NCBI GenBank assembly: GCA_023251755.1
Contig: JAHEYF010000008.1
Location: 1 to 64,000, forward strand
DNA: 64,000 nt
Origin: Bacteroidota bacterium
GTDB taxonomy: Bacteria > Bacteroidota > Bacteroidia > B-17B0 > Aurantibacillaceae
Reading direction: 5' to 3'
Each line of letters starts with the position of its first letter. Within the stretch, counting starts at the first letter, position 1. The notes below the pieces were generated by a model. That model saw only the letters and a list, made by a program, of their open reading frames with translations. It had not been told where the DNA came from and made no database searches. The translations under genes and the position numbers were made by a program. This document shows, piece after piece, positions 26,701 through 49,009 of the stretch.

Positions 26701-26727
26701 AAATCAAAAACCCGCAATAATCGGGAA
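26701..26727 (-). promoter_or_regulatory. Shared upstream motif, copy in reverse orientation
   Basis: AAATCAAAAA-CCCG-CAATAATCGG is the same 24-bp block (4-base spacer) as at 31637-31660 and 38839-38862. It faces away from the T9SS thioredoxin-like gene and is an inverted partner of the copy at 26861-26886. No -7 box follows it on its own strand, so it may be an auxiliary activator site. Confidence 0.5.
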
Positions 26728-26860
26728 GACAAAAGTCTTTTTTTAAGATACATCCAGATTCCATCAAGGGCTATTCGCACAAACCAATTGACTTCATTTA
26801 TTCATTCATTATTCAGGGCTGGTATCCGAAAGAAAAGGCAATTGTACAGGTGTTTGCTCT

Positions 26861-26914
26861 CCCGATAATTGAACAATTTTGATTTGAAGTAAAAGCTTAT
26901 TTCAACTACGTTTA
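26861..26914 (+). promoter_or_regulatory. Shared T9SS-cargo promoter (motif, -33 and -7)
   Basis: CCGATAATTG-AACA-ATTTTGATTTG at 26862-26886 matches the block CCGATTATTG-N4-TTTTTGATTTG found upstream of neighbouring secreted-protein genes. Its final TTTG serves as -33; 20 bases later TACGTTTA (26907-26914) is one base off the -7 consensus. The ATG follows at 26939. Confidence 0.55.
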
Positions 26915-26938
26915 GGAGCAACTATAAAATCAAATAGT

Positions 26939-28657
26939 ATGAAAAGTATTTTCACCTTGACAAGATTGTTTCTTGCATTTGTTTTATTACCGGGTCAAAG
27001 CAAAGCCCAATTACCTGACGGGAGTATAGCTCCGGATTTTACCTTTGCAGATATAAACGGAACAAGCTGGAATTTATATTCGCTGCTTGCCCAGGGCAAA
27101 ACTGTTTTTATTGACGTTTCAGCAACCTGGTGTAGTCCCTGCTGGGGGTTTCACGAGAGCCATACCCTGCGTAATTTATATAACAACTATGGACCAGGCT
27201 CAACCAATGAGCTGATGGTGTTGTTCATTGAACCCGATCCGGCTACCGGCTTAGCCGACCTGCAAGGACAGACTTCCTCCTCTATGGGGAACTGGTTGCA
27301 GGGTACTCCTTATCCGGTCATTAATCTGAATGCAACAGAGGCCCCGGTTTTTGAAAACAATTATCAGATTACAGGGTACCCGACGCTATACATGGTATGC
27401 CCTGATAAGTTAATCCGGTCCTGGTATGCAGAAGATTACTCCTGGGCGTATAATGAGTTTATGAAAAAAAAATGTTTTGCTAAAATAAGCGGCCCTGATG
27501 CCAGTTTGCACAACAGCGACCCTCAGAAATTTGTAAGCTGCGATAGTGTGAACCCAGTCATTAAATTATTTAATTACAGTATTGCTGCATTAAGCTCTGC
27601 AAAAATTACTTACAACATGGATGGGCTTGTTCAAAAAGTTTACAATTGGACCGGCAATTTACCTACCTATGGATCGGCAACAATCACCGGCGTTAAACTT
27701 CAATCTTCCCTGGCCGGAAATCATAAAATTACGATCACCGTATCCAATCCAAACTCGGGTACTGATGCCAACCACATCAACGATACGGCATTCATCATTC
27801 CATACGTCCGCTTTTCTTCAACCGGTGGAATACCTGTGGCAGAGAGCTTTTCAGGAACAACATTTCCCCCTATGGGCTGGGGCTTTCAGCAGGGAACTAT
27901 TTTTGATAAAATTAATTGGGCGGCAACTTCCTATGGAAACCCTTCGCAGGGCGCTTACTTTAAAATGTTGTTTAATTATATGAATGATCCACAATTTTCT
28001 CCTACCGCAGGCAATAGTTTTTTCCTCGCTACACAAAATCTTTCATCAATGACCAATCCCAAAATGACTTTTGATCTGGCAAAAGCAAGGTTAAATGAAT
28101 ATTATTTTGATAACCTGAAGGTAAAGGTATCTGTTAATTGCGGCTCAACCTGGACAACCGTTTACAATAAAACCGATAACTCCACCAGTAATACCCTTGA
28201 AACAGTTCCTTACTCCACCTATCCGAATGAATACTTCCCCGCTTCAAACGAATGGAGAAATGAAACAGTTAACTTAAGTGCATTTGCAAACAATGCTGCT
28301 GTACTTATAAAATTCGAAGTAGCGGGTTCCGGCAATAATCTTTACCTCGACAACATCAATGTTTCTCAAAACAACAGCATTGAAAAGTACAACCCTATCA
28401 CTTATTTTGATATTTATCCCAACCCTGCCTCAAGCGAAATTACACTTAATTTAAGCCTTACTAAGTCTGAAGACATAACAGCAAGTATTTATAATAATAT
28501 AGGGCAATTGGTGCAAAGCGAACAATTGAATGGGCTACAGATTGGTGATAGCTCAATTAAAATGCCTGTCGAAAAATTGCCAGCCGGAATCTATACGATG
28601 ATTGTTTCCTCAAAAGATGGATTGCAATCAAAAAAATTTATTATCTCAAAAAATTAG
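26939..28657 (+). CDS. T9SS-secreted protein with thioredoxin-like and choice-of-anchor-J-like domains
   Basis: 572 residues. Signal peptide 1-23, then a TlpA-like thioredoxin fold with C65-S-P-C68 in DVSATWCSPCWGF and cis-Pro in ITGYPTLYMV. A middle beta region follows, then a choice-of-anchor-J-like jelly roll (about 295-465; GIPVAESFSGTTFPPMGW, LDNINVSQN). The C-terminus is a T9SS type A sorting signal (FDIYPNPASSEITLNLS, LPAGIYTMIVSSKDG, KKFIISKN). It should be exported to the periplasm, moved across the outer membrane by the type IX system, and kept at the surface or released. A surface thiol-disulfide enzyme is an inference. It is followed by a strong terminator. Confidence 0.88.
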   Translation: MKSIFTLTRLFLAFVLLPGQSKAQLPDGSIAPDFTFADINGTSWNLYSLLAQGKTVFIDVSATWCSPCWGFHESHTLRNLYNNYGPGSTNELMVLFIEPDPATGLADLQGQTSSSMGNWLQGTPYPVINLNATEAPVFENNYQITGYPTLYMVCPDKLIRSWYAEDYSWAYNEFMKKKCFAKISGPDASLHNSDPQKFVSCDSVNPVIKLFNYSIAALSSAKITYNMDGLVQKVYNWTGNLPTYGSATITGVKLQSSLAGNHKITITVSNPNSGTDANHINDTAFIIPYVRFSSTGGIPVAESFSGTTFPPMGWGFQQGTIFDKINWAATSYGNPSQGAYFKMLFNYMNDPQFSPTAGNSFFLATQNLSSMTNPKMTFDLAKARLNEYYFDNLKVKVSVNCGSTWTTVYNKTDNSTSNTLETVPYSTYPNEYFPASNEWRNETVNLSAFANNAAVLIKFEVAGSGNNLYLDNINVSQNNSIEKYNPITYFDIYPNPASSEITLNLSLTKSEDITASIYNNIGQLVQSEQLNGLQIGDSSIKMPVEKLPAGIYTMIVSSKDGLQSKKFIISKN

Positions 28658-28665
28658 CCTCTACT

Positions 28666-28700
28666 TTACTTTTCCAAAGTTCTAAACTTTGGAAAAGTAA
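28666..28700. terminator. 16-bp perfect hairpin between convergent genes
   Basis: TTACTTTTCCAAAGTT (28666-28681) and its exact complement (28685-28700) enclose a 3-nt loop. It lies between the stops of two convergent genes, 9 and 18 bp from them. It has no T-tail of its own beyond AT-rich flanks, but likely terminates both transcripts. Confidence 0.75.
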
Positions 28701-28718
28701 TAGTTTGATAATCACCAC

Positions 28719-31589
28719 TTACTTTAATAACGAAACAGTACCTGTCATCCTGTAATATTTTCCCAACACATCCCTTGCATTTACTTTCCAGATAAATACA
28801 TCAATCAAAGCCACCTCTTTTCCGTTGCCTATTGTTCCATCCCAGCCTTTATGAAGGTCATCGGTTTTAAAAATCATGTTTCCCCAGCGGTCAAAAATCA
28901 TTAATTCGTAACCGGTGTTGCTGATGCCTGTTCCTTCAGGTTTAAAAATATCATTCTGTCCATCGTGATTCGGAGTAAAACTATTGGGTACATAAATAGC
29001 TGTTTCGGGTAATATACACACCTGTTGAGTGTTTGTATCTTTGCACCCATCTGAACTAAGTGCGATCAGTTGCACGGTATAACAATCCTCGCCCGAAAAA
29101 GAAAATGATGGATTACTTGCCGTGGAGGTGGAATTATTTTCATCTCCAAAATTCCAGTAATAAGAAACAGCATTGCCTGAATAATTTAAAAATTGAACAT
29201 AGGGGTCAATAGTTGTAGGCTTCACCGGGTCTGATTGAAAATTTGCTACAGGTGGGGCAAATACATGAATATACGCAGGCATACTTACTTTTGCAGCGCA
29301 ACCGTTTGAAGAAAGCACCGACAAAGAAACGGATTTATCGCCTGGCAAGGTATAACAATGTGAGGTGTTCCCGTTTGATGCAACAACAGTACCATCACCA
29401 AAATCCCATATCCATGAGTTAATTACATCAGGGACAACAACAGTTGATTTATCAGTAAAGGTTACACACAATGGAGCGCAACCAGAAGTGCTGCTGGCCT
29501 CAAGAGCCGCAACGGGTGCAGGCTTAACAGCAACACTTACCGAAACATTCGTAGTACAGGCTTTAGCATCGCTTACGGTTACCGAATAAACAATTGTTGT
29601 AAACGGACTTACCTGCACTGCATTCCCGGTTAAATTACCGGGATTCCACAAAAAGGAATAAGCAGGCGTACCTCCATTTACTGTGCAATTTAATTGAACA
29701 GGTTTCCCTGCACATGCCGGACCACCACTCACACTTGCAACAGCACTTAAAACAGGAGGTTCACTTATGTTTAACGTTTTTAGCTGAACACATCCTGAAG
29801 CATCTGTAACTGTAACTGAATAATTTCCTGCCGGTAATCCTGTTGCTGTTGAAGCAGTTCCGCCTGCAGGGCTCCATAAATAGGTATAAGGCGGATTTCC
29901 ACCATTCGCAGCAATGCTTGCCGAACCATCGGTACCTCCTTTGCACAAAACGTTTGTTTGCGACAATACATTCACTGTTGGTGAGCCCGGGCTTGAAACT
30001 GTTGCTGTAACATTTACCGAACATCCATTCGCGTCGCTCACAGTAACTGTGTAAACCCCGACAGCTAAATTTGTAATGTTTGTTGTCGTTTGATTGCCGG
30101 GTAACCACAAACAGGTATAATTGCCTGCGCCACCGGTAACTGCAACTGTTGCTGATCCTGTATTGCCGTTACACGCTGTTGAAGTAACCGTTGTACTGGC
30201 ATTAATTGCAGCAGGCTGACCAATAGAAACTGTTTGACTGCTTAAACAACCCAAAGCATCATTTACGTTTACTGTATAGTTGCCTGCTATGAGGTTAGTT
30301 GCACTTGCGCCATTGCCTCCGGAAGGTAACCAGGTGTATGTATACGGACTTATTCCACCCGTAACGCTTGCCATAGCAGTACCATCGCTTAAGCCGTTAC
30401 AACTTGCATTACCTGAGGTAATACTCACAATGGGGCCGCCGCTGTTAGTAACAACAACCGTATCACTTTGTTTACATCCATGTGCATCGGTAACCTCCAC
30501 CCAATATGTGCCGGCACTTAAGCCATTAATACCTGAACCGGATCCTCCAACCGGTGACCAGTAATACGTATAAGTGCCGGTGCCTCCACTTGCTGTAACC
30601 GTTGCCGATCCATTACTTGCTCCACAACTGGCGGGGCTTGAAACAATAGTTAATGAAGGGGGCTGATTTACAGTTACCGTAACAGTTGCAGTTGCGGTGT
30701 GGTTTGCCGCATCAGTAACCGCAACTGTATAGTTGGTTGTTGCGTTTGGAAACACAGCTATCGATTGTGTTGTTGCTCCACCCGGGCTCCACAAATAAGT
30801 ATAAGGCCCTGTACCACCGGTAGTGCTTGCTGTAACAACCGCACAGTCCCCCGCACAAACAGTTACCGGAATTATAGCAACTGAGGGGGTTGCGCAGGGT
30901 TGTAATATTTGTAAATTATCAATCATATTGTACGCTGCCCCAAAACCCCCTCCGGTAGCGCTTGACCCTCCTAATAGACTAATGTATGTCCAGGGAGAAG
31001 TGACCGTAAATGTTCCCGTATAATTTTGCCAGGCTGTAACAGAAGTGGGAATGGCTTGCTGAAAAAGTAATTGGGTTTGCGCACAGGAAGCACTGCCCCC
31101 ATATATTGAAACCAACCCCGGATTGGTATAATTTTGATTGTTGTTCCCCATTACCAAATCAATGCTCACCGTATAAGTAACTCCTGTTTGAAGAGGTGCA
31201 CACAGCTGCTGGCTGATACTCTCTCCGAAACCACTTGAGTATTGTGTTGCAGGACTTCCGGCAAGGCCCATAAAATAAGAACCATTGGAAGCTGTGATGT
31301 TATTTGGTCCGGATGGGGATGAATTTTGACAAGGCTGCGAATCACCTGTGGTATTGCCGCATTGCGTCCAGGGCGGACAATTAATTGTATTGGGGCCCAA
31401 ACAGGCTGTGCCTTCAAATGAAGGATTGGTCATACAAATCGGGCAAGACTGCTGCTGCGCATTCAACACCGGACAAAACACCAAATAAAAAGCAAGTAAA
31501 AAAACAACCAGCATACGGGCCCGAAAAAAGGTTTTTGGCTCCTGCTTTCTATGGTCGATAGGTTTAATAAAAATTTTGTCGATATACAT
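28719..31589 (-). CDS. Giant secreted adhesin-like protein: SprB repeats, PKD, gliding-motility C-terminal domain
   Basis: 956 residues from ATG 31589. The signal segment is RMLVVFLLAFYLVFCPVLNA, with ATG 31514 as a shorter alternative; the frame is open further upstream to 31667 but would cross the promoter. Domains: a Cys-rich N-terminal lectin-like region, about six SprB-type modules with the pattern GG-Y-Y-W-P and TVTVSDANGC, a PKD domain (WIWDFGDGTVV), a second PKD-like module (YYWNFGDENNSTS), and CHU_C at the end (PNSFTPNHDGQNDIFKPEG, MIFDRWGNMIF, DVFIWKV, TGTVSLLK). It is predicted to be exported by T9SS and displayed on the surface, like SprB-class gliding adhesins. Confidence 0.9.
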   Translation of the reverse strand: MYIDKIFIKPIDHRKQEPKTFFRARMLVVFLLAFYLVFCPVLNAQQQSCPICMTNPSFEGTACLGPNTINCPPWTQCGNTTGDSQPCQNSSPSGPNNITASNGSYFMGLAGSPATQYSSGFGESISQQLCAPLQTGVTYTVSIDLVMGNNNQNYTNPGLVSIYGGSASCAQTQLLFQQAIPTSVTAWQNYTGTFTVTSPWTYISLLGGSSATGGGFGAAYNMIDNLQILQPCATPSVAIIPVTVCAGDCAVVTASTTGGTGPYTYLWSPGGATTQSIAVFPNATTNYTVAVTDAANHTATATVTVTVNQPPSLTIVSSPASCGASNGSATVTASGGTGTYTYYWSPVGGSGSGINGLSAGTYWVEVTDAHGCKQSDTVVVTNSGGPIVSITSGNASCNGLSDGTAMASVTGGISPYTYTWLPSGGNGASATNLIAGNYTVNVNDALGCLSSQTVSIGQPAAINASTTVTSTACNGNTGSATVAVTGGAGNYTCLWLPGNQTTTNITNLAVGVYTVTVSDANGCSVNVTATVSSPGSPTVNVLSQTNVLCKGGTDGSASIAANGGNPPYTYLWSPAGGTASTATGLPAGNYSVTVTDASGCVQLKTLNISEPPVLSAVASVSGGPACAGKPVQLNCTVNGGTPAYSFLWNPGNLTGNAVQVSPFTTIVYSVTVSDAKACTTNVSVSVAVKPAPVAALEASSTSGCAPLCVTFTDKSTVVVPDVINSWIWDFGDGTVVASNGNTSHCYTLPGDKSVSLSVLSSNGCAAKVSMPAYIHVFAPPVANFQSDPVKPTTIDPYVQFLNYSGNAVSYYWNFGDENNSTSTASNPSFSFSGEDCYTVQLIALSSDGCKDTNTQQVCILPETAIYVPNSFTPNHDGQNDIFKPEGTGISNTGYELMIFDRWGNMIFKTDDLHKGWDGTIGNGKEVALIDVFIWKVNARDVLGKYYRMTGTVSLLK

Positions 31590-31608
31590 CTTTCTAAAAT
31601 TATTCACC

Positions 31609-31663
31609 CAAATTCGAACTATAGCCCAAAACACACAAATCAAAAAAAGGCAATAATCGGAAA
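31609..31663 (-). promoter_or_regulatory. Shared T9SS-cargo promoter of the 28719-31589 gene
   Basis: On the minus strand CCGATTATTG-CCTT-TTTTTGATTTG (complement of 31636-31660) is followed after 19 bases by CGAATTTG (complement of 31609-31616), a weak -7 box with two mismatches. Initiation would lie about a dozen bases before ATG 31589, which supports that start. Confidence 0.5.
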
Positions 31664-31848
31664 ACAAAACCGGGGAAATATAATCTGAAGGTTATAGTCT
31701 ATAATTTAAAATCAGTAACAACAACAAAAAATTCCTCCAGTTTTAGTAATTAATCCCATAAACTGACATTCTCTTATAGCTATTGATTTTACTACTATGC
31801 AGAAGCATCGCACCTCTATTTTTAAAAAAAAATACGACATTCTCTGCG

Positions 31849-31901
31849 TAATTATTAGCAAAATTTTGTATTGGCCTCAAAGCTCACTAAAGTTAATTTC
31901 G
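31849..31901 (+). promoter_or_regulatory. Shared T9SS-cargo promoter (degenerate) of the 31939 gene
   Basis: ATTATT (31851-31856), then AATTTTG and TATTG, resembles the block CCGATTATTG-N4-TTTTTGATTTG with the spacer one base longer. TTG at 31871-31873 plus 20 bases leads to TAATTTCG (31894-31901), one base from the -7 consensus. This is the weakest of the four in-orientation copies. Confidence 0.35.
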
Positions 31902-31938
31902 TTTTGCTTATCCTCCCTGTACATTTCATACTTTAAAA

Positions 31939-34900
31939 ATGAAAAAAAATTATCTCCTCCCTGATTTACAAGTACGGTGCCCTACGTGTTTTATAAAAGC
32001 TGCGAAGAAAACAATTCTGCTACTTTTTTTTGCATTGATTGCAGAGGGTATTTCTGCTCAATCCTGTACTGTTACCGCAACGAATCCCTGGGAATGGCCT
32101 TCGCATTCCAATTGGTTTATCGGCAATGGACTAAAAGGAAATTTTTCGGGTGGGGCCCTTGTGGTGTCTCCTCAGCCCAACCTTACTTCGTATGAAGGGA
32201 CAACAGGCGCAAGTGATGACAAAGGCCATCTTTTGTTTCTTTCGAACGGACGTTTGTTATGGAATGCAAATGGTGCCCTCACCTACTCCGGTCTATTAGA
32301 AGGCAATGAAGGCTTCATGACCAATGGAAGCGCCTCACAGGGGGTCGTCACTGTTCGTCATCCCTTAGATACTTCGAGCTATTATATTTTCACTGTTGAT
32401 GATGCACAGCTTCCGGTTGCCAATGGCTTAAACTATTTTGTTTTCGACAGAAACGGAAACCTGCTCTCAGGCCCGGTTAGTCTGGGAGGATACCGAACCG
32501 CAGAAGGGATTGCAGCTACCAAACATTTTAACGGGGTAGACATCTGGATAAGCGTTTATGCATCGGGCACCAATAAATTTTACACGTACCTGCTTACCTG
32601 TAACGGCGTCATCAGCCCTCCTGTAATTTCGCCTGTAGCACCTGTATTTTCAGGGCAAAAAGAGCGGGGAGGACTGGCTTTTTCCTGGGATGGAAAATAC
32701 TTTGCCCAGGGCCACCCCGATTATTTTCCGGATAGCGATAAAGAAGTGTCTGTATATAAGTTCGATAATTATACCGGTGTTATCAGTGACCCTCACCACA
32801 TATCAAGTGCAGCAAGTGTTGAGGGGCCTTATGATCTTTTATTCTCACCCGATAACTCAAAACTATACCTCTCTTCATCCACAGGTACACTGAGCTATTA
32901 CGACATCACTTCCTGGAACACGTCTACCATGGCGGCTTCCAACACATACATCACAGGTGTTTCAACCGGGTCACATGCTGCTATAGAAATTGGAGGCGAT
33001 GGGAATTTATATATGTCTACCTTAGGAACGGGACTCGGGAAACTAAGCGGGAGTATGAATTCCGGTAACCTGGCTTATTCAAACATGGCCGGGGCCATTA
33101 CCAACCGGGGTTTACCCACCATGTACATCCCCCCTGCAGAAGAACCAGACATACTTGAAGTGGGGCCTTTTTGTGATACCGATCCGCCTGTTAACCTCTC
33201 CACTTTCTGGTTGTGCAACGGGCTAAATGCTGAAGACTCCCTTGCTAACCTGAGTGTATATACCGGAACCGGCATCACGAATACTATTATTGGAATCTTT
33301 GACCCCGCAGTTGCAGGAGCAGGTACCCACATGATTATTTTCAGGCGCTGCAATTCCGACGATACAACCTACATTGTCGTTGACCCCTGTGCTTGTCCTG
33401 ATACGACCTTAAGCCCTATACCTCCGCTTTGTGCAGATGGAACTATCAATCTCAACAATTATAAAATAACCACCGAGCCCGGTACCTGGTCCATCAGCAG
33501 TTCCCCTGTGGGTTCCACTGCTACACTGACCGGAAGTACCTTTCATGCCAACAACACCGTTCCGGGAGTTTATGTGGTCCGTTTTACACTCAGCTCACCA
33601 ATACCTGGCTGTCCTGATTATTCGGAGCGCACAATTATTATAAACCCATTGCCAACTGTTACAATAAGCGTGGGTACCATAGCCTGTAACGGACAAGCGG
33701 CTACACTCACGGCCAGTGGTGCAAACACCTATACCTGGTGTACCGGTGTACAGGGAAACAGCATAATTGTAAGCCCGACACAATCAGGTTACTATTCAGT
33801 TACCGGTTTTAATACAAACGCTTGCAGTGATAAAGACAGTGTTTTACTAACTGTTCCGGCACCAATAGTGCTCACAACCAATTCAACCAATCCTGGTTGT
33901 GGTACACTGGGATCGGTAACAGCAACAGCAACAGGAGGAACAGGTACACTTTTTTATTTATGGAACGACAGCCTCCACCAGACTTCATCAACCATAAGCG
34001 GACTTCATGCAGGCGCTTATGTTGTGCTGGTTACCGATTCAAACGGATGTACTCAAACAGCCTCTGTAGACTTAAGCAACCCGGTATTGCCAATAGCCGG
34101 TTTTAATGTTGTGTCGGCCTGTGTTGGAATACCGGTACAGTTCATAAACAGTTCCATACCCGGCGCCGGAAATTCGCTTACAGGGTTCAGCTGGAATCTC
34201 GGCGATCCGGGCAGTGGCGCTGCCAATACCCCGGCTACTTCTGCCCCGCCACCTCACTTATACACCAGCACAGGTATAGATAGCTTTTATGTAAGTCTGC
34301 TGATTATTGCTAACAATGGTTGTAAGGACAGCATAAATAAATGGGTGCACTTATCGCCGGTACCGGTAGTTCATTTTGGTCGGCCCGAAAGCGGATGTGC
34401 GCCGGTGTGCGATCATTTTACCAATTCAACAACAATAAGCGGGGTTGATACCAACTTAACATGGAGCTGGAATTTTGGAGATCCCTCCTCAGGAGCAACC
34501 AATCTCTCTGCATTGCAAGCTCCGGCGCATTGTTATACACAGGCCGGCAGTTATAATGTAAGCCTAACAGCAGTGTCGGGCAAGGGTTGTGCAAACAGTT
34601 TAACGATAAACAACCTGGTGAATGTATATCCTGTTCCCCAAGCCGCCTTCACAGCCAGTCCTGAGGCAACACAGATATTTGATCCCGAAATAAGTTTGTT
34701 TGACCAGTCCACAGGAACACCGGTATACTGGCATTGGGACTTTGGTGTTCCGGATACCAACAAGGACACTTCACTATTTCAAAATCCTGTATGGGCCTAT
34801 ACCGACACAGGCACCTACACCATTTGTCTGCATATTGAAAACGCTTATGGATGCACAGACAGCACCTGCTCACCTGTACTCATTACCGATTATTACACCT

Positions 34901-35187
34901 TTTATATACCCAATTCTTTTAGTCCCAACGGAGACGGTGCGAACGATTTTTTCAACGGAAAAGGTTACAACATCATTGATTATCAATTATGGATTTTCGA
35001 CCGGTGGGGAGATATGATATATACCACAGGAGCTGCCCGTAGTCCTGAATCATCAGTTCCATGGAATGGCAAAGCGAACAACAGCAAAGAAGTGGCCCAG
35101 GAGGATGTTTACATTTGGAAAGTAAACCTGGTTGATTTATTCAGTAAAACACATACTTATACCGGAAGGGTAACGCTGATAAAATAA
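31939..35187 (+). CDS. Giant secreted protein: beta-propeller-like N-terminus, PKD domains, gliding-motility C-terminal domain
   Basis: 1082 residues. The N-terminal extension of ~30 residues contains a signal helix (TILLLFFALIAEGISAQ). Residues about 45-400 look like a repeated beta-propeller (DDKGHLLFLSNGRLLWNANG, VEGPYDLLFSPDNSKLYLSS, GTLSYYDITSW). The middle has Ig/SprB-like modules and PKD domains (FSWNLGDPGSG, WSWNFGDPSSGA, WHWDFGVPDTN). It ends in CHU_C (IPNSFSPNGDGANDFFNGKG, WIFDRWGDMIY, DVYIWKVNLVD, TGRVTLIK). It is a T9SS cargo protein likely exposed at the cell surface. Its stop is 15 bp from that of the convergent neighbour. Confidence 0.9.
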   Translation: MKKNYLLPDLQVRCPTCFIKAAKKTILLLFFALIAEGISAQSCTVTATNPWEWPSHSNWFIGNGLKGNFSGGALVVSPQPNLTSYEGTTGASDDKGHLLFLSNGRLLWNANGALTYSGLLEGNEGFMTNGSASQGVVTVRHPLDTSSYYIFTVDDAQLPVANGLNYFVFDRNGNLLSGPVSLGGYRTAEGIAATKHFNGVDIWISVYASGTNKFYTYLLTCNGVISPPVISPVAPVFSGQKERGGLAFSWDGKYFAQGHPDYFPDSDKEVSVYKFDNYTGVISDPHHISSAASVEGPYDLLFSPDNSKLYLSSSTGTLSYYDITSWNTSTMAASNTYITGVSTGSHAAIEIGGDGNLYMSTLGTGLGKLSGSMNSGNLAYSNMAGAITNRGLPTMYIPPAEEPDILEVGPFCDTDPPVNLSTFWLCNGLNAEDSLANLSVYTGTGITNTIIGIFDPAVAGAGTHMIIFRRCNSDDTTYIVVDPCACPDTTLSPIPPLCADGTINLNNYKITTEPGTWSISSSPVGSTATLTGSTFHANNTVPGVYVVRFTLSSPIPGCPDYSERTIIINPLPTVTISVGTIACNGQAATLTASGANTYTWCTGVQGNSIIVSPTQSGYYSVTGFNTNACSDKDSVLLTVPAPIVLTTNSTNPGCGTLGSVTATATGGTGTLFYLWNDSLHQTSSTISGLHAGAYVVLVTDSNGCTQTASVDLSNPVLPIAGFNVVSACVGIPVQFINSSIPGAGNSLTGFSWNLGDPGSGAANTPATSAPPPHLYTSTGIDSFYVSLLIIANNGCKDSINKWVHLSPVPVVHFGRPESGCAPVCDHFTNSTTISGVDTNLTWSWNFGDPSSGATNLSALQAPAHCYTQAGSYNVSLTAVSGKGCANSLTINNLVNVYPVPQAAFTASPEATQIFDPEISLFDQSTGTPVYWHWDFGVPDTNKDTSLFQNPVWAYTDTGTYTICLHIENAYGCTDSTCSPVLITDYYTFYIPNSFSPNGDGANDFFNGKGYNIIDYQLWIFDRWGDMIYTTGAARSPESSVPWNGKANNSKEVAQEDVYIWKVNLVDLFSKTHTYTGRVTLIK

Positions 35188-35202
35188 GCAGGGTAAACGG
35201 TT

Positions 35203-36699
35203 TCAATATTTTTCAATGTATTCAAAGCCCTCTTTATTTAATTTACACATCACCCATCCGTAAAAATTGAAGAGTTTAAAAACATTTTCTTCATACTCCG
35301 TCTTTTTCAATTCGAGCAAGGCCTCAGCCAAACTCAGGAATGCAGCCCGCTCCTCGGCTGTGTTACCTGCTGCAATTAATTTTTTAAGCCCTGAGATCAG
35401 TACTTTTTCAAACTTAAAATACAATGAATTTGTAATCAGGTACCGGAATAAATTACTGATAGCATACTCCAGGTAATCCAATTGTTTTAATTCATAATAC
35501 AACACTAAGCGGTAAAGTTTAATTACATTGGTCATGTTTTTTAATGTATGATTGCTGGTTGATTCATCCATCTTGTTGATCCATTCCAATGCTTTTTTAA
35601 AATCATCCAGCATAAAATAATTAACCGAAATATTAGTAATGATGTGCAGCTTAAAGTCTGGTTTTAACACCTCCTGTGTAGCGCAAAACAGGGCACGGTT
35701 CTTCTTTAAACCTTCCGCTCTGTTTGTTGCATTTGTATGCCGGAGCCAATATGATTCATACATCAGACAAGCTTCCGTTTTACTGATCTCATTGCTCTTA
35801 AATTTCAGTTCCCTGCTCATCAGGGTGCTCAGTAGCTCAGGCAGCCTATCAGGCCGGCCACTGTATGCGTAAAAATACATGAGGTGAATCAGCGAAGAGA
35901 CAGAGGTTTGTTCCAGTTCCTGGTTATTCGTTGCTAAATTTGCAAGCAGCGACACATTCTGTTTGAAATAATATTCTGCCTGCTGATTTTTTTTAATCGC
36001 TAAAAAGTAAGTCCCTGCACCAACGCCATACTTCCACTTCGACATCAGGGACAATGGATAAGTTTCTCCTTTTTGCAAAACCGGCAATACAATCTGTTCA
36101 AGCTCTTTCAAATCGCTTTCATCTCGGATCATTATATTTTGTTTAAGTTTAAATGCCCTCAGCCGGTCCATAAGAATATTAAACTCAATATCTCTTTCTA
36201 TTTTTTCAAGCAAGTCGCCCAGCTCTTCTTCAAAGCAATCAATCGCATGGTTTTTAGGATGATTCAGTTTAACATTAACAGTAGAAGTAAATTCGGTAAG
36301 TATCAACCCGAAGTTATACAACTCATGTTTATCCGCTACTGCTTTGGCCTTCTTTAAGATATCCAGGCACTGTTCATACAACATTCGTTTATGAAGGGTC
36401 TCTGCGGTCGAGAGCATCCTGCACAGCTGAGTAACAGGAAGTCCGTTATCCAATTCGGAAATAAAATCGAGCAAACGGCTTTGCAAATAGTTTTTTATAC
36501 GTGAATAGTTTTTGAAATTATATTCATGTATTATTTTCTGTTCATTGTGTTCGGTCTGCCGTTCATACATTTCAAACACTGTTAAATATCCTTTTTGTTC
36601 AACAATGTTAACGGAAAGACAACGCTTCTTAAAAAGTCTACGCTCCTTTTCTGTCATAATGTGTATCAAGCCATGGAGACTATTTGAGAATGTCCGCAT
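35203..36699 (-). CDS. Uncharacterised ~500-residue helical protein, copy 1 (paralogue of 62318-63817)
   Basis: 498 residues, almost all helix, no signal peptide or membrane segment, so cytoplasmic. It starts MRTFSNSLHGLIHIMTEKER and contains GYLTVFEMYERQ, NYSRIKNYLQSRLLDFISEL, ISVNYFMLDDFKKALEWINK and LFNFYGWVMCKLNKEGFEYI. All these segments have close counterparts in the protein at 62318-63817, which I judge to be about 45% identical. The pattern of repeated helix pairs suggests a TPR-like scaffold. No function is known to me. It lies between a CHU_C protein gene (convergent) and an S8 protease gene (same strand). Confidence 0.8.
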   Translation of the reverse strand: MRTFSNSLHGLIHIMTEKERRLFKKRCLSVNIVEQKGYLTVFEMYERQTEHNEQKIIHEYNFKNYSRIKNYLQSRLLDFISELDNGLPVTQLCRMLSTAETLHKRMLYEQCLDILKKAKAVADKHELYNFGLILTEFTSTVNVKLNHPKNHAIDCFEEELGDLLEKIERDIEFNILMDRLRAFKLKQNIMIRDESDLKELEQIVLPVLQKGETYPLSLMSKWKYGVGAGTYFLAIKKNQQAEYYFKQNVSLLANLATNNQELEQTSVSSLIHLMYFYAYSGRPDRLPELLSTLMSRELKFKSNEISKTEACLMYESYWLRHTNATNRAEGLKKNRALFCATQEVLKPDFKLHIITNISVNYFMLDDFKKALEWINKMDESTSNHTLKNMTNVIKLYRLVLYYELKQLDYLEYAISNLFRYLITNSLYFKFEKVLISGLKKLIAAGNTAEERAAFLSLAEALLELKKTEYEENVFKLFNFYGWVMCKLNKEGFEYIEKY

Positions 36700-36853
36700 A
36701 TAAGTATGTTTTGATGTTAAACGCTACAGCTCTATTATTTCCGATTTGCACATGCGTAACACCCTACAACCCGGTTAATCACCCGGTCATTTAAATTAGA
36801 AGTCCACGCAATAGCTTTCCCTGTTCTTATAGTGAAAATGATCCCCCTGCGGG

Positions 36854-38566
36854 TTACCTTTGTCCGACAATTAATTTTCCGTTCTGTACCTGGCCATTTT
36901 CCGAAATGATGGTGTATAAGTAAATACCCTCTTCCATGCCTTCCCTCCCAACTTCGATGCGATTTTTCCTTTCGCTAATCTGTTTCACCATTTTTCCCAT
37001 CACGTCATATATTACAATACTGTGCATGGTGTTTGCAGAAGCATCATCAAATAAAAAATACACCCGCTCATTAAATGGATTTGGGTACAGTTGCAGACGA
37101 GCAGAGTAATCCGTTTTATTTTTAACACCAATTGTTGTTTGTGCAGTTAACAATGCCTGGTAAGCGTCTATTCTTCCCCAGCCCATATACTTGTCCCATC
37201 CTGCAATATCTTCAACTGGGATACCCACCTGGTCCTTAGCGGTAGTTTCGATAATGTTTTTAACCTGAGCCGGTGTTAAATTCGGATTTACTACGTAGAT
37301 CAATGAAGCGAGCCCTGTAACATGAGGAGCAGCCTGCGAAGTTCCGTTATAAGAATTGCCGATCGAATAATTATCCGTTCCGGAAGCCACACAACCCACT
37401 ATCCAATTTCCGGGAGCAACAACTGAAATATAATTTCCAAAATTACTTCCCTGTGAGCCGGCCCCTCCGGAACCAAACGGAACACAACGTGAATCATCTA
37501 CATTGGTTGCTCCAACAGCCATTACATGATTTAAGCAGGCCGGTGTCTGAGCGCTCCCACTATTGTTGTTGCCCATGGTGGTAACCAGCAACACATTTTT
37601 TCCATAAGCATAATCAATGGCACTTTGCATGGCTGCATCGGTAGTAACTCCTGTAAAGCCCAAAGACATGTTGATTACTTTGGCCCCGTTATCGGCAGCG
37701 TACTTAATTGCATTACAAATTACCGTTGAACTGAAACCGCTTGAGGAAGAAGAGTAATTAGAGACGATCATCAGCTTACATTTCCAGTTTATGCCTGCCC
37801 ACCCTGTTGAATTATTTCCGGTTGCCCCAATGATGCTGGCTACATTTGTTCCATGTCCGCCCGCATCAGCAACATTGTTGTTGTTCATGTTAAAGTTCCA
37901 GCCGTTTACATCATCCTTAAAACCATTTCCATCATCGTCCAAATTGTTCCCGGCTACTTCAGCAGTATTTGTCCAGATCCTTCCGCTAAACTCCGAATGG
38001 TTTAAATTTATTCCCCCATCAATGATTGCAACTATTGTATTTACATCGCCTGTTGTAATGTCCCATCCCGGTTTTATATTGATATCGGCTCCTGCCTTTG
38101 GGGTTTTTCCGTTAGCATAAGTAAAGCTACCATCATTGTATAAGCCCCATTGCAATTTAAATTTTGCAGCGGGTTCATTGGGTGTGAGACAGGTTTCTTG
38201 TTCTCCGTCTCTGTGGCCGATGTAGTTTGCCTGTGCATATTCAAACAAGCCTGTGGCTGAATATTCTTCGGCGAGAGCGGACACATTCTCCTCATTTTCA
38301 AACGTGAGAATAAAAGAGTTTTGCAAAGCAGCTGATGGAGGACCCTGAAAAAGGCCGGCAACACTTTTACAGTGATGAAACGCATTTAATTCATCCAAAG
38401 CAGGGATGCCACAATACACGATGCTTTTGTTCGTTTCAAATTCTACAGGCGCTGTTTGTTTAAATTTAACGATCAACTGCCTTTTCTCATATTCGGCAGG
38501 TACCTGGCTCCATGCTACTGATATTGGTATGAGCAAAACCATTACTGTACTTAGTTTATTTTTCAT
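36854..38566 (-). CDS. Secreted S8 (subtilisin-like) serine protease with T9SS sorting domain
   Basis: 570 residues from ATG 38566 (signal MKNKLSTVMVLLIPISVAWS); 27 extra upstream residues to 38647 are not signal-like. It has a short propeptide-like region, then the catalytic triad: Asp in VAIIDGGINLNHSEF, His in GGHGTNVASIIG, Ser in GTSQAAPHVTGLASL, with the oxyanion Asn in VTTMGNNNSG. The C-terminus is a type A sorting signal (LYPNPFNERVYFLF, EGIYLYTIISENG, GKLIV). It is predicted to be exported through T9SS and act outside the cell on proteins; maturation of neighbouring surface proteins is possible but unsupported. Confidence 0.92.
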   Translation of the reverse strand: MKNKLSTVMVLLIPISVAWSQVPAEYEKRQLIVKFKQTAPVEFETNKSIVYCGIPALDELNAFHHCKSVAGLFQGPPSAALQNSFILTFENEENVSALAEEYSATGLFEYAQANYIGHRDGEQETCLTPNEPAAKFKLQWGLYNDGSFTYANGKTPKAGADINIKPGWDITTGDVNTIVAIIDGGINLNHSEFSGRIWTNTAEVAGNNLDDDGNGFKDDVNGWNFNMNNNNVADAGGHGTNVASIIGATGNNSTGWAGINWKCKLMIVSNYSSSSSGFSSTVICNAIKYAADNGAKVINMSLGFTGVTTDAAMQSAIDYAYGKNVLLVTTMGNNNSGSAQTPACLNHVMAVGATNVDDSRCVPFGSGGAGSQGSNFGNYISVVAPGNWIVGCVASGTDNYSIGNSYNGTSQAAPHVTGLASLIYVVNPNLTPAQVKNIIETTAKDQVGIPVEDIAGWDKYMGWGRIDAYQALLTAQTTIGVKNKTDYSARLQLYPNPFNERVYFLFDDASANTMHSIVIYDVMGKMVKQISERKNRIEVGREGMEEGIYLYTIISENGQVQNGKLIVGQR

Positions 38567-38999
38567 GCTGGTGTTATTATATGAATAAAGATTTGATTGA
38601 AGTCTGGAAGTATCTATTTTATTAGTGTAACAAAGCCGGTAAGTCAATTTTTCTCATTGTTGAAAGCTAAATAAATGGACAACCGCTCTATGCATTCAAT
38701 AAATTATTCTTGTTGTGCTGAAGGCATTTTTATAAGCCCGCTGATGGTCCTCCAGGCTACAGTGAATATGATTGTTAGTTGTTGAAACATGATGAAGAGT
38801 TTATGGCATCAAAAATCTGTCATTTGAAATGCATTTGAAAATCAAAAATTGTCAATAATCGGGAAATCAGAAGGTTTATCTGAATTGATTTCAGGCATAA
38901 ACTGATCGCTGCGGAAGGAGTTGATGAACAGGAAATTCACTTGTAAAAGCCTACTACGAGGGGAATACGAATTAAATAACAATCGGAAAAGCAGGTGCT
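38567..38999. other. Gene-free region upstream of the S8 protease
   Basis: 433 bp with no convincing gene. It holds one full copy of the shared T9SS-cargo promoter block (38810-38866). A related word, TTTTCCGATTGTTA on the minus strand, lies at 38967-38980, close to the 3' end of the next gene. The distance from the promoter block to ATG 38566 would give a leader of about 230 nt. Confidence 0.4.
38810..38866 (-). promoter_or_regulatory. Shared T9SS-cargo promoter upstream of the S8 protease
   Basis: On the minus strand CCCGATTATTG-ACAA-TTTTTGATTTT (complement of 38838-38863) is followed 20 bases later by GATTTTTG (complement of 38810-38817), one base off the -7 consensus. The 24-bp core is identical to the 26701 and 31637 copies apart from the 4-base spacer. 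Confidence 0.5.
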
Positions 39000-40508: not shown

Positions 40509-40928
40509 AAATTTTCTTTAGCTGTTAACATATAACGCAAATCGTTCCGGAAGTCGTCTCAAAATCAATTTGCAATTTATCATTCAAACAGGCTCCATTT
40601 TGCCCCTTTCACTTAAGATTGCCCGTGTTTTTGGCTGCAATTTTTTAATAAAATAACTCGACTTTTTTAGGATTAAATTTTTTTCTCCCCTTTTAATGTC
40701 TTTGTTCTGAATAAAATACAGCGACTTCATGTTATCATTACTTACCAAAAAAGTGATGCCGCCTGCTATCTCAATTACCTCTTTTAATTTGTCTTTCAGT
40801 TTTAATAGTTCTAAAATTGCTTTTATTCCACTTAAGATCAGCAATTCACTTATTAAGGTATGAATTTAATTCTTCTTCACTATAAGATTGAATAAAATTA
40901 ATTGAACCTAAAAAACACTAAGGCCACA
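40509..40928. other. Gene-free region upstream of the 1488-residue secreted protein
   Basis: 420 bp between divergent genes. An 86-codon frame on the minus strand (40584-40844) exists, but I see nothing that supports translation. I find neither the shared T9SS-cargo block nor a clean vegetative promoter. Confidence 0.4.
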
Positions 40929-43900
40929 ATGAACAGGAGCAGGTATTTTCAGTTTCAAAAAACCGTTTTAGCAAAAATTCTTTTTGTTATTATTTTTCCA
41001 TTCAGTGTTCAGTCCGCTGATATTGTTTTAAATTTTTGCCCCATAACAAAAATCCAAGCCTCTCATGAATGGAGCGCCGGTATTCAAATTCAAAACAACA
41101 GCGGTGTTGTGCTTGACCTGCTCAACAACAATTTTATTTTAAACTGGCCCGGCCTGGTTTCCCTGCAATATCCATTTTCCAATGTTACCCATACCGGAAC
41201 AAACTGGAGTTTTACCATCAATTTGAATTGGCCCGGTACCATGTCTGTTGGTGCAACTGCCAACCTCTCTGTTTCTGGAAATAATTTTTCTGGTGCATTA
41301 CAATTTCCAACAAGTGGCACGTATACACAGAATGGAACAACTTATTCGGTTGAAGTAAAAAACTGCAACCAAACTCAGAATTATGAATTGTATAATTCCA
41401 CTTATGAGTTTAACCGCGATTGTTTTTTATATTCACCTGCTAAGTTCTGCCTGGGGCAGGGGGCAACCGAAATATGGTATGGCGAAGGAGTTTTTGATGC
41501 GATGATCCCCACCAATCGTCCAAGCTGGGCAATTGGTGTAATGGTAGCGCACCGGCTTTTTACAAATTTAGTTGGAGAGGATATTTTATCGCCTAATTTC
41601 TGGATGGCAACAGCCATGAATGAATCCCGGATGACCTGCGACCCAACTATTGCACCCAATCTTAGCGGCGGGCATTTTCCAATTAACGGAAATGCAAACA
41701 CAGGAACAGGTGTGTACAATCCAACCAACAATTGTTTTCAGGTGTTAAGTATCGGTTATGCCCAGATTGCCAACAACCAACCCGATTTATTTGCCCAGAC
41801 CAATGCCTATGGAACTGCCCAATACGCGAATGTAGTGGACAACGGAAATTGGGAAACAGGCGCATTGGCCCTTGCTTATTACCATTACCAGGATATGCGC
41901 TACTGGGATCAGATTTATTGTTTTAATGTAATGAAGACCTGGAAAGATGCGGCAGACCCATATACAGTTGAAAAAATTTTTTACCACGCTTATCACGATG
42001 GCCCTAATGCAGGAATTGCTCTTTTAAACGACATTAAAGCCAACTACACCGCAGCTACCGCGGCAACAAACATGAACACCGTTGTTACAACAGGAGGCAC
42101 CTGGAGCCAGGTCAATGCCGGTGGCAGCTCACAAAAGGTGGGCAATTTTACGTATTTGCTCGATGGAAACAATGGCACAATTTACCCTTGTTCAAAAGCA
42201 GATTATACCACAAACTATTTGGGTTGTTATAATGATCCGATCAAATGGACTGATGTTGTTTATTACCTGGACAGAATTAAAATACTATATCCTGCATTAC
42301 AACAAGGCCCTGTACAAGCTGCTATTCAGGCTGTTTTCAACAGCATCAACGGTGGGGCCACTATCAACTTCGAAGACCTCGGAAAAGTAATTGATGAAAT
42401 TGTCATACAGATGGGGGGTCATGACCCATCCAAATACATTGCTACACAATTTGCCGCTTCAAAAACCTGTACGGATAATGCAATGGGGGTTTCTTTGCAA
42501 ACCAACGATACCATTTGCCCCGGAACAGCTGGTGAATTACAGGTTTGGTTATCGGGCAACAAGAATTTTAAGTTCACTTTGTTATATCCCAACGGATCAA
42601 CACAAACATTTTCCAATGTCGACCATTCCCCTTTTATTGTTCCAATCAACCAACCCGGGCCTTATGAAATTATTTATTTTGAAGACAGCAGCAGGGTTGG
42701 AGACCTGAATTGTTTATTTAGTAAACTTACCGTGCAAAGTAAAAACGGGAACATTGTTCAATGGGACAAGAGTACTTTAACCGGGAACCCGCCTTGCACC
42801 TATGGTCCGCTTGTAATAAAAAACACCGGACCCGATCAGGTAAGTGTTACCTATACATATAATGGTGGCTTTCCGCAAACAGTCAACATTCCAGCAGGTA
42901 CAAGCTTATATACTGTTTCCACAAACCCTGCTCCCGGGCAATACATCATCACTACCATGACCCCTAATAAATGCGGTACTCCCGTTAACGATACCATTCG
43001 CATCTGCTCAGATTGTACAAAGCCCCGTGCTGTAATTTCAGGAGGTGCTTCTATATGTGCGGGCGATAGTGTACAACTGACTGTAACTGTTTCAGGCGGT
43101 ATTGGCCCTTATAACATAAAACTTAGCGACGGCACAAACAACTGGAACGTTTTTAATATAAACGGGCCGGTCTATACCTTTTATGTTGCCCAGACCGGCA
43201 CCTATATGGTTGATTCGGTTTGGAATTCAAATTGTGATACCCTGGGATCGGGGTTGGCTGTGGTAAACATACAGGCATTGCCCACCCTCACTGTTTCGGG
43301 CGATACAACAATTTGTGCCGGGGACACCGCATTGCTTCACCTTGCTTTAACAGGCCATCCTCCTTTTGCACTTGTTATTTCGAATGGAAGTCTATCTGTT
43401 CCGCTTACTACCGGATCAACAACTTATTCGGTTGCTTTAACAACGCCGGGAACTTATACGCTCAGTCTTACAGATTCAACTGCCTGTGTTGTTACTAAAA
43501 ATGTGACGGTACTTGTTGCACCTGATCCAACGGTGGATTTAGGCGCAGACATTTTTTTATGTTATGGCGAAAGTGTTGCGCTTGACGCGGGAAGTGGCTT
43601 TGCTGTTTATGCATGGTCGGGCACAGGCACAGGATCAGCTCAAACCAGTATAGCCGACACCAGTGGAACCTATTTTGTGCAGGTAACCAATGCAGCCGGT
43701 TGTAGTGCAGGTGATAGTGTACAGGTAGACATCAATCCTAAAATCAACGCGACATTTGCAAGTGATTCAATCAGTATTTGTCCGGGCGACAGCATACAAC
43801 TTTCTGTTACGCCTACCGGCGGAGCCCCTGCCTATACCTATACCTGGGGCGGCCTGGCCAGTGGAACAGCAACAAGCTTTACTGCGGGAGCAAACGGTTG

Positions 43901-45395
43901 GTACACTGTAACCGTGAGCGATGCGAAAGTCTGTTTTTCGACAGACAGCATTTATGTAAAAACAAGCAGTACCCTAAGCATAAACCTTGCTGATAAAACA
44001 ATATGTGAAAACGATAGTGCCCTGTTGGATTGTGGCTACAATCCGGGCAATTATACCATAGCGTGGTCGGGAGGACAAACCACACAGGCTATTTATATAA
44101 ACACCGCAGGCACCTATAGCGTATCAGTTACCAACAATGGCGCCTGCAGTGGTGCCGACAGCATGCTCTTAACTGTTCACCCGCTTCCTGACTTAACAGG
44201 AATAGCCGACACAACTGCCGTATGCAGCGGAACTGCGGCAATCATCAACAGCAATTTAGGAATTGGGTATAGCTGTAATTGGAACCCCGGCAATGTAACA
44301 ACACCTAACTTAACTACAAGCAACGCCGGCACTTATACGCTTACGGTTACCAATACAAATACAACCTGTGTTAACCATACCCAGGTCAATGTAGGGCTGT
44401 ATCCTTTGCCACCGCTTAGTTTACACCAGGACCTCGATACCTGCACGGGCATCACCCTGACCCTGCAGAATTATACCAATACATCGCCGGGCTTAATTTA
44501 CAACTGGACCAAATCAAGTACCGGTACTACAAGTATTGGTACCTCGCCTACCCTGCAAATTACAACAGCCGATATGTATCAATTAGAAATCAGTGATGCG
44601 CATGGATGCAAAAATTCAGATACTGTACAGGTAAATTTCCGCCTCCAGCCATTTATTGATTTATCGGGAGGGGCGGATACACTTGCGATCTGCAAAGGAA
44701 AAACACTGGCACTCAATGCCGGAAACCCCGGCATGACTTACGCCTGGTCTCCGGGAGGACAAAGCACCCAAAGCATTGTCGTTTCAATGAATGGACTATT
44801 CAGCGTTGTGGTGAGCAATGGCAATTGCAAAGATACCGATGCTGTGTATATTCAAACAATAGTACTCCCACACAATGTGCTGCATGATACGTTGAAAGCC
44901 ATCAGGCCTTTTTATTGTTTTGATGAGCTTGGTTCAGGGGTAGTGTTATCAGCCCTTGCCCAGGATAATACAATGTATAATTATTTGTGGGCACCGGGTG
45001 GCGAAACAACACAGGCTATTGTAATTACTACCGCTGGAACCTACCAGCTAACATTAAGTATTGATGGCTGTACAGAGGAAGAAGAAATAACAATTATTGA
45101 TTATTGTGAACCGGCGATATATGTACCCAATGCATTTACACCCAACAATGATAACAGCAACGACACCTTCGGACCCAAAGGAATATATGTGAACGATTAT
45201 CATTTTATGATTTTTGACCGCTGGGGAGAACTTGTATTTGAAACAAGTGATTTAACAAAAGGATGGAATGGTTCTTATAAGGGCAACGAAGTCCAGGAAG
45301 CTGTGTTTGTATGGAAGCTGGATTACAGCGAAAACCTAAGCAATGGCAAATCACGCAATCAACAAAAATTTGGAACCGTAACCTTGCTTCGATAA
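40929..45395 (+). CDS. Giant secreted protein: CBM-like and lysozyme-like N-terminal part, Ig-like repeats, gliding-motility C-terminal domain
   Basis: 1488 residues from ATG 40929 (signal VLAKILFVIIFPFSVQSA); TTG 40902 would add nine residues. Residues about 30-140 form a beta-domain rich in Asn and Trp (FILNWPGLVSLQYPF, FTINLNWPGTM) reminiscent of a cellulose-binding module. Residues about 160-400 include SPNFWMATAMNESRMTCD followed by VLSIGYAQIANNQPDLF, which recalls the catalytic Glu and the G-x-x-Q helix of lysozyme-like transglycosylases. Then come eight or so Ig/PKD-like modules with CxGDS motifs (ICAGDSVQLTV, ICPGDSIQLSV) and CHU_C (PNAFTPNNDNSNDTFGPKG, MIFDRWGELVF, AVFVWKLDY, FGTVTLLR). 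It is a T9SS cargo; cell-wall or glycan degradation is an inference. Confidence 0.88.
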   Translation: MNRSRYFQFQKTVLAKILFVIIFPFSVQSADIVLNFCPITKIQASHEWSAGIQIQNNSGVVLDLLNNNFILNWPGLVSLQYPFSNVTHTGTNWSFTINLNWPGTMSVGATANLSVSGNNFSGALQFPTSGTYTQNGTTYSVEVKNCNQTQNYELYNSTYEFNRDCFLYSPAKFCLGQGATEIWYGEGVFDAMIPTNRPSWAIGVMVAHRLFTNLVGEDILSPNFWMATAMNESRMTCDPTIAPNLSGGHFPINGNANTGTGVYNPTNNCFQVLSIGYAQIANNQPDLFAQTNAYGTAQYANVVDNGNWETGALALAYYHYQDMRYWDQIYCFNVMKTWKDAADPYTVEKIFYHAYHDGPNAGIALLNDIKANYTAATAATNMNTVVTTGGTWSQVNAGGSSQKVGNFTYLLDGNNGTIYPCSKADYTTNYLGCYNDPIKWTDVVYYLDRIKILYPALQQGPVQAAIQAVFNSINGGATINFEDLGKVIDEIVIQMGGHDPSKYIATQFAASKTCTDNAMGVSLQTNDTICPGTAGELQVWLSGNKNFKFTLLYPNGSTQTFSNVDHSPFIVPINQPGPYEIIYFEDSSRVGDLNCLFSKLTVQSKNGNIVQWDKSTLTGNPPCTYGPLVIKNTGPDQVSVTYTYNGGFPQTVNIPAGTSLYTVSTNPAPGQYIITTMTPNKCGTPVNDTIRICSDCTKPRAVISGGASICAGDSVQLTVTVSGGIGPYNIKLSDGTNNWNVFNINGPVYTFYVAQTGTYMVDSVWNSNCDTLGSGLAVVNIQALPTLTVSGDTTICAGDTALLHLALTGHPPFALVISNGSLSVPLTTGSTTYSVALTTPGTYTLSLTDSTACVVTKNVTVLVAPDPTVDLGADIFLCYGESVALDAGSGFAVYAWSGTGTGSAQTSIADTSGTYFVQVTNAAGCSAGDSVQVDINPKINATFASDSISICPGDSIQLSVTPTGGAPAYTYTWGGLASGTATSFTAGANGWYTVTVSDAKVCFSTDSIYVKTSSTLSINLADKTICENDSALLDCGYNPGNYTIAWSGGQTTQAIYINTAGTYSVSVTNNGACSGADSMLLTVHPLPDLTGIADTTAVCSGTAAIINSNLGIGYSCNWNPGNVTTPNLTTSNAGTYTLTVTNTNTTCVNHTQVNVGLYPLPPLSLHQDLDTCTGITLTLQNYTNTSPGLIYNWTKSSTGTTSIGTSPTLQITTADMYQLEISDAHGCKNSDTVQVNFRLQPFIDLSGGADTLAICKGKTLALNAGNPGMTYAWSPGGQSTQSIVVSMNGLFSVVVSNGNCKDTDAVYIQTIVLPHNVLHDTLKAIRPFYCFDELGSGVVLSALAQDNTMYNYLWAPGGETTQAIVITTAGTYQLTLSIDGCTEEEEITIIDYCEPAIYVPNAFTPNNDNSNDTFGPKGIYVNDYHFMIFDRWGELVFETSDLTKGWNGSYKGNEVQEAVFVWKLDYSENLSNGKSRNQQKFGTVTLLR

Positions 45396-48912: not shown

Positions 48913-49009
48913 GTTCTTTCGTTCAAAAGCTCTTTCGTTTAATCGTTTTACGTGAAGATGATCCCGAACGAATAAACGAAAGAACAAGTAAACTAATAAA
49001 CGGGTAAAC
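48913..49009. repeat. GAACGAATAAAC-family hairpin repeat, copy at 48.9 kb
   Basis: Left words GTTCTTTCGTTCAAAAGC and TCTTTCGTTTAATCGTTTT, centre ACGTGAAGATGATCCC, right words GAACGAATAAACGAAAGAAC and AAGTAAACTAATAAACGGG. The 20-mer at 48959-48978 (TGATCCCGAACGAATAAACG) is identical to 51881-51900. It lies between two minus-strand genes (893-residue protein and OmpA). Confidence 0.75.

Follow-up and report, generated by a model that had tools for sequence, protein, structure and literature searches.

A two-part block of 24 bases, CCGATWATTG-N4-WTTTTGATTT, occurs four times within one 12-kb island of T9SS cargo genes in a Bacteroidota bacterium of the Aurantibacillaceae (assembly GCA_023251755.1), and this motif is real, private to its locus and probably regulatory for the small cargo island. 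More specifically, it seems rather likely that the block is the DNA-binding site of a putative regulator dedicated to this one group of genes. The window, by which we mean the whole stretch of 64,000 nt that was analysed (contig JAHEYF010000008.1, positions 1-64,000), holds four copies of the consensus against 0.06 expected from dinucleotide-preserving shuffles, and 0 of 100 shuffles of the window gave four copies. Three copies match all 20 fixed bases and the remaining one matches 18 of 20, with four bases between the two 10-mers in every case. This bears out the initial annotation, which had reported a block with a constant four-base spacer at four sites (the coordinates agree within a few bases) and near-identity of three copies over the 20 fixed bases. 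The fifth, degenerate copy that it had placed at 31849 had to be abandoned: this site scores -2.5 bits with the matrix built from the four copies, and since 757 positions in the window score equally well or better, we regard it as noise.

The copies are distributed over three upstream regions, and with the signal-peptide starts as reference each of the four is found ahead of the start codon of a T9SS cargo gene. Two of them precede the gene for a secreted thioredoxin-like (Trx-like) protein with a type A T9SS sorting domain (26939..28657, plus strand). Copy 2 (26862..26885, plus strand; CCGATAATTG-AACA-ATTTTGATTT) is 53 nt upstream of the ATG at 26939, and copy 1 (26701..26724, minus strand; CCGATTATTG-CGGG-TTTTTGATTT), about 214 nt upstream of the same ATG, is oriented away from the gene, so that the two form an inverted pair 161 bp apart from centre to centre. 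Copy 3 (31637..31660, minus strand; CCGATTATTG-CCTT-TTTTTGATTT) lies 47 nt upstream of the likely ATG at 31589 of the gene for a SprB-repeat/PKD protein with a CHU_C type B T9SS sorting domain (28719..31667, minus strand) and is divergent to the gene for a PKD protein that likewise carries a CHU_C type B T9SS sorting domain (31939..35187, plus strand). Copy 4 (38839..38862, minus strand; CCGATTATTG-ACAA-TTTTTGATTT) is found about 272 nt upstream of the likely ATG at 38566 of a subtilase gene (Peptidase_S8, type A T9SS sorting domain; 36854..38647, minus strand). The proposal that four copies are aimed at a cargo gene thus holds for three, those at 26862, 31637 and 38839; the fourth had been the noise site at 31849, and the copy at 26701 points away.

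The ends of the cluster show no sharp base-composition boundary, and none of the island genes was seen to encode a classical transcription factor. No RNA family matched the motif region. A terminator at copy 1 (CCCG-loop-CGGG-TTTTT) was considered and rejected, since it is limited to that copy and the terminator scan did not call it. The Trx-like protein at 26939-28657 belongs to a T9SS cargo family of at least seven proteins, the others being encoded on contigs C97, C133, C200, C207, C190 and C162 of the same genome; these paralogues are 36-39% identical to the window protein, and four members of the family are in loci with BT_2802-like genes. The motif is absent upstream of the paralogous Trx-like cargo genes.

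Comparison of the four copies shows that 18 of the 20 positions of the two 10-mers are invariant, that the spacers have a pairwise identity of 17%, and that the downstream and distal upstream flanks are similar only at the level of shuffled sequence; the 10 bases directly upstream of the block are slightly alike (P = 0.02). Conservation of the 10-mers next to a random spacer and random distal flanks argues against a simple recent duplication and is as expected for a protein-binding site under selection. The same comparison bears on the notion that a small repeat or mobile element (a MITE, a REP or a recombination site) left the copies behind, with the inverted pair at 26701 and 26862 as its ends. 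Copies 1 and 2 do form imperfect 40-nt inverted arms, and the genome has many other intergenic repeats, but the 199-bp inverted pair lacks the full copy elsewhere in the genome that would mark a MITE and, beyond short chance-level matches, partially matches only the two other motif copies. Furthermore, identical blocks with differing spacers and distal flanks are unlike element copies or att sites, no matching target-site duplication is visible, and the half-sites are not inverted repeats. We consider an origin from such an element unlikely.

The position of the block with respect to putative promoters is consistent with a regulator site. The -7 box known from Bacteroidota is TAnnTTTG (PMC7366714; PMC9723704), and -7-like boxes follow three of the copies: TACGTTTA after copy 2 (26907..26914, plus strand; 5/6 of TAnnTTTG, 22 nt downstream), CGAATTTG after copy 3 (31609..31616, minus strand; 4/6, 21 nt) and GATTTTTG after copy 4 (38810..38817, minus strand; 5/6, 22 nt). 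The boxes described in the initial annotation are accordingly present 21-22 nt after the block at three copies, if weak in sequence, and there is none after copy 1 at 26701. The chance of obtaining the observed set of boxes is about 0.003-0.009, a figure calculated after the fact, and these position statistics are weak because there are only four sites. In this genome TAnnTTTG occurs 43 times at 21-40 nt upstream of an ATG, compared with 8 times for a scrambled box, and this enrichment suggests that the sequence probably functions as a -7 box in this organism. The enriched 21-40 nt zone includes the boxes of copies 2 and 3; that of copy 4 is about 240 nt from its ATG.

With the -7 box placed at -12 to -5 (PMC9723704), the distance of 21-22 nt would put the block at about -57 to -34 relative to a putative transcription start, either overlapping the -33 region or directly adjoining it on the upstream side. 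The conserved blocks, the free spacer and flanks, and a distance to the -7-like box that is constant in three of the four copies together have the anatomy of a promoter-proximal site, and with start codons 47 and 53 nt away at copies 3 and 2 they agree with the earlier suggestion of a regulator site abutting the -33 region. The reading of that site as one for an activator has to be relaxed, as the direction of the effect was an assumption and a repressor would fit equally well. Two observations speak against a promoter-proximal site: copy 1 is not directed towards any gene and lacks a -7 box, and for copy 4 the transcript would have to begin with a leader of about 240 nt.

A conserved block near a promoter might instead be the recognition sequence of an alternative (ECF-type) sigma factor with private promoters in the island, and in Flavobacterium ECF-type and SM5/sigma54 motifs control T9SS machinery and sprB genes (PMC9723704). 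In every copy just 4 bp separate the two halves of the block, which is too little for -35 and -10 elements with their spacing of about 16 bp; in addition, the ECF motif published in connection with the T9SS carries a CGT box rather than this block (PMC9723704), and the genes checked around the island included no sigma factor gene. We judge such sigma-factor promoters to be distinctly unlikely, and retain the block as a probable site for a dedicated regulator.

Confinement to the island was examined in the 4.64-Mb genome (217 contigs, 93% complete), pattern searches covering the whole genome and matrix scans a 712-kb sample. The whole-genome pattern search found no further copy with up to two mismatches outside the island, and at three mismatches there were two more matches compared with four for a reversed control pattern. 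In the 712-kb sample, the weakest of the four copies scores 29.7 bits with the matrix and the next site 19.8. Among 150 relatives just two single matches with one mismatch were obtained, and 84,980 species gave 16 scattered single matches, most of which fall within open frames and belong to unrelated phyla; both results are at chance level. No viral contig matched the motif. The thought that AT-rich upstream sequence produced a functionless coincidence can point to TTTTTGATTT, which by itself is simple sequence, but three matches to all 20 fixed bases and one to 18 are far from the expectation given above and the rest of the genome has no match of such quality, making coincidence very unlikely. 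Hardly credible, finally, is a genome-wide regulator with these four copies among its sites, the regulon of T9SS cargo genes put forward in the initial annotation together with the genome-wide scan that we ran: although 4/4 copies lie upstream of cargo genes, the genome encodes at least 218 T9SS C-terminal sorting domains with no other copy at up to two mismatches, the next genome matches are at control level and the cargo gene that follows (40902-45395) is without a copy, so that the claim is refuted at the tested stringency and only a highly degenerate site family could save it.

Given a motif private to the island, two genes of the island encode proteins that we single out as candidate local regulators, both BT_2802-like with a TPR fold. 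The first, P0001 (35203..36699, minus strand), lies on the same strand as the subtilase gene and 154 bp behind it, with no terminator-like site called between the two; the stop codon of the second, P0002 (39000..40508, minus strand), precedes motif copy 4 by about 137 bp. A third BT_2802-like protein is encoded on the contig at 62318-63817. The island proteins are about 500 residues long and score 93.7 and 72 bits against NF058569, the BT_2802 family (E 1e-26 and 5e-20), as full-length homologues that stay below the curated cut-off of 550 bits and hence are not members at the curated level. The predicted structure of P0001 is a low-confidence TPR-like helical fold (pLDDT 61) whose best matches are TPR proteins, with no match to the PDB at E <= 0.001; on the basis of this low-confidence model, no domain for DNA binding could be recognised in the BT_2802-like proteins. 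That one of the two island proteins binds the motif is a guess, which we offer as a lead.

The genome carries about 32 BT_2802-like genes, and 14 of these directly adjoin a T9SS cargo gene compared with about 3.5 expected (nominal P 2e-6), an expectation that presumes about 3,900 genes and ignores the clustering of cargo genes. Two relatives hold 82 family matches (G091, about 70 genes) and 27 family matches (G104); among the matches listed, no excess of BT_2802-like genes near type A domains was seen in G091, and the weak excess in G104 is not significant. One might extrapolate that the roughly 32 BT_2802-like TPR-fold proteins are expanded locus-specific regulators, each with a private DNA site, of which CCGATTATTG-N4-TTTTTGATTT would be the first seen. 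We regard this as a long shot: 27 further stretches at other BT_2802-like loci, set against about 40 control stretches, showed no visible excess of private motifs, and no comparable motif was found at loci that include three with paralogous Trx-like cargo genes.

Most of what the scanned stretches yielded was tandem words, duplicated segments or REP-like repeats. Intergenic tandem arrays of words of about 7 bases (AAAAGCCAAGAGCC, GAACGAATAAACGA, TTACGAAGTACGATTGACGA and others) occur in the window at 48944, 51866 and 55020 and in stretches L111, L112, L115, L119, L120 and L128, and arrays of this kind are also common to distant intergenic regions. A dispersed palindromic element of REP-like appearance, approximately ATTAGTATATTCGTACAAATTCGTAATTAGT, lies upstream of several genes on two contigs (L128 3415-6460, L171 8144-10670), and a REP-like palindrome, CGACCCCGAAGGGGTCG, has several intergenic copies in L147 (5037-8290). 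In L115 (12820-12985 and 15661-15830), the blocks AGTCAATTGAAAAT-N-TAATCTAACAATTGAGAATT and TTTTAAAATAACTTTTCTGATTAAAAAAA recur, spaced almost equally, in front of two T9SS cargo genes that are neighbours and adjoin BT_2802-like genes; this two-block pair is possibly a duplicated upstream region.

On the molecular level, the dedicated regulator that we propose would contact the conserved 10-mers, which lie on successive helical turns, leaving the 4-base spacer free, and would occupy the -33 region or the DNA immediately upstream of it. Binding there could switch the Trx-like, SprB-repeat and subtilase genes together, possibly along with the divergent PKD gene, and the inverted pair at the Trx-like gene may act cooperatively. 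One BT_2802-like gene could be co-transcribed with the subtilase gene. To our knowledge, it is poorly understood how Bacteroidota select which of hundreds of T9SS cargo proteins to display. A private site common to four unrelated cargo genes would be a concrete example of control exerted island by island, and it speaks against one switch for all cargo. Should the adjacent TPR-fold proteins indeed bind the motif, an expanded and little-studied family would gain a function.

Compared with the sigma-A promoter of Bacteroidota (-33 TTTG, -7 TAnnTTTG), the block resembles it in ending with (A)TTTG or ATTTT at the presumed -33 position, in the weak -7-like boxes 21-22 nt further on and in the genomic enrichment of TAnnTTTG at the expected distance. 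It differs in that the sigma-A promoter is without the CCGATWATTG part and its fixed spacing, and the boxes here match only 4-5 of 6 positions. Transcriptional control connected with the T9SS is also exerted by PorX/PorY-SigP (ECF) in Porphyromonas gingivalis and through the SM6 motif of Flavobacterium psychrophilum; these act on the secretion machinery, and the Flavobacterium motif has a CGT box (PMC9723704). Here, unlike in those systems, the shared element is an unrelated block of 24 bp at four cargo genes of a single locus. Locus-specific regulators of Bacteroidota, for example those of polysaccharide utilisation loci, are encoded within their own cluster and have a site found only there. 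The island departs from this arrangement in that no SusR, HTCS or AraC-type gene was seen in it, the candidate being a BT_2802-like TPR-fold protein without an identified DNA-binding domain; it follows the arrangement in having a candidate regulator gene inside the cluster and a site that is exclusive to that cluster.
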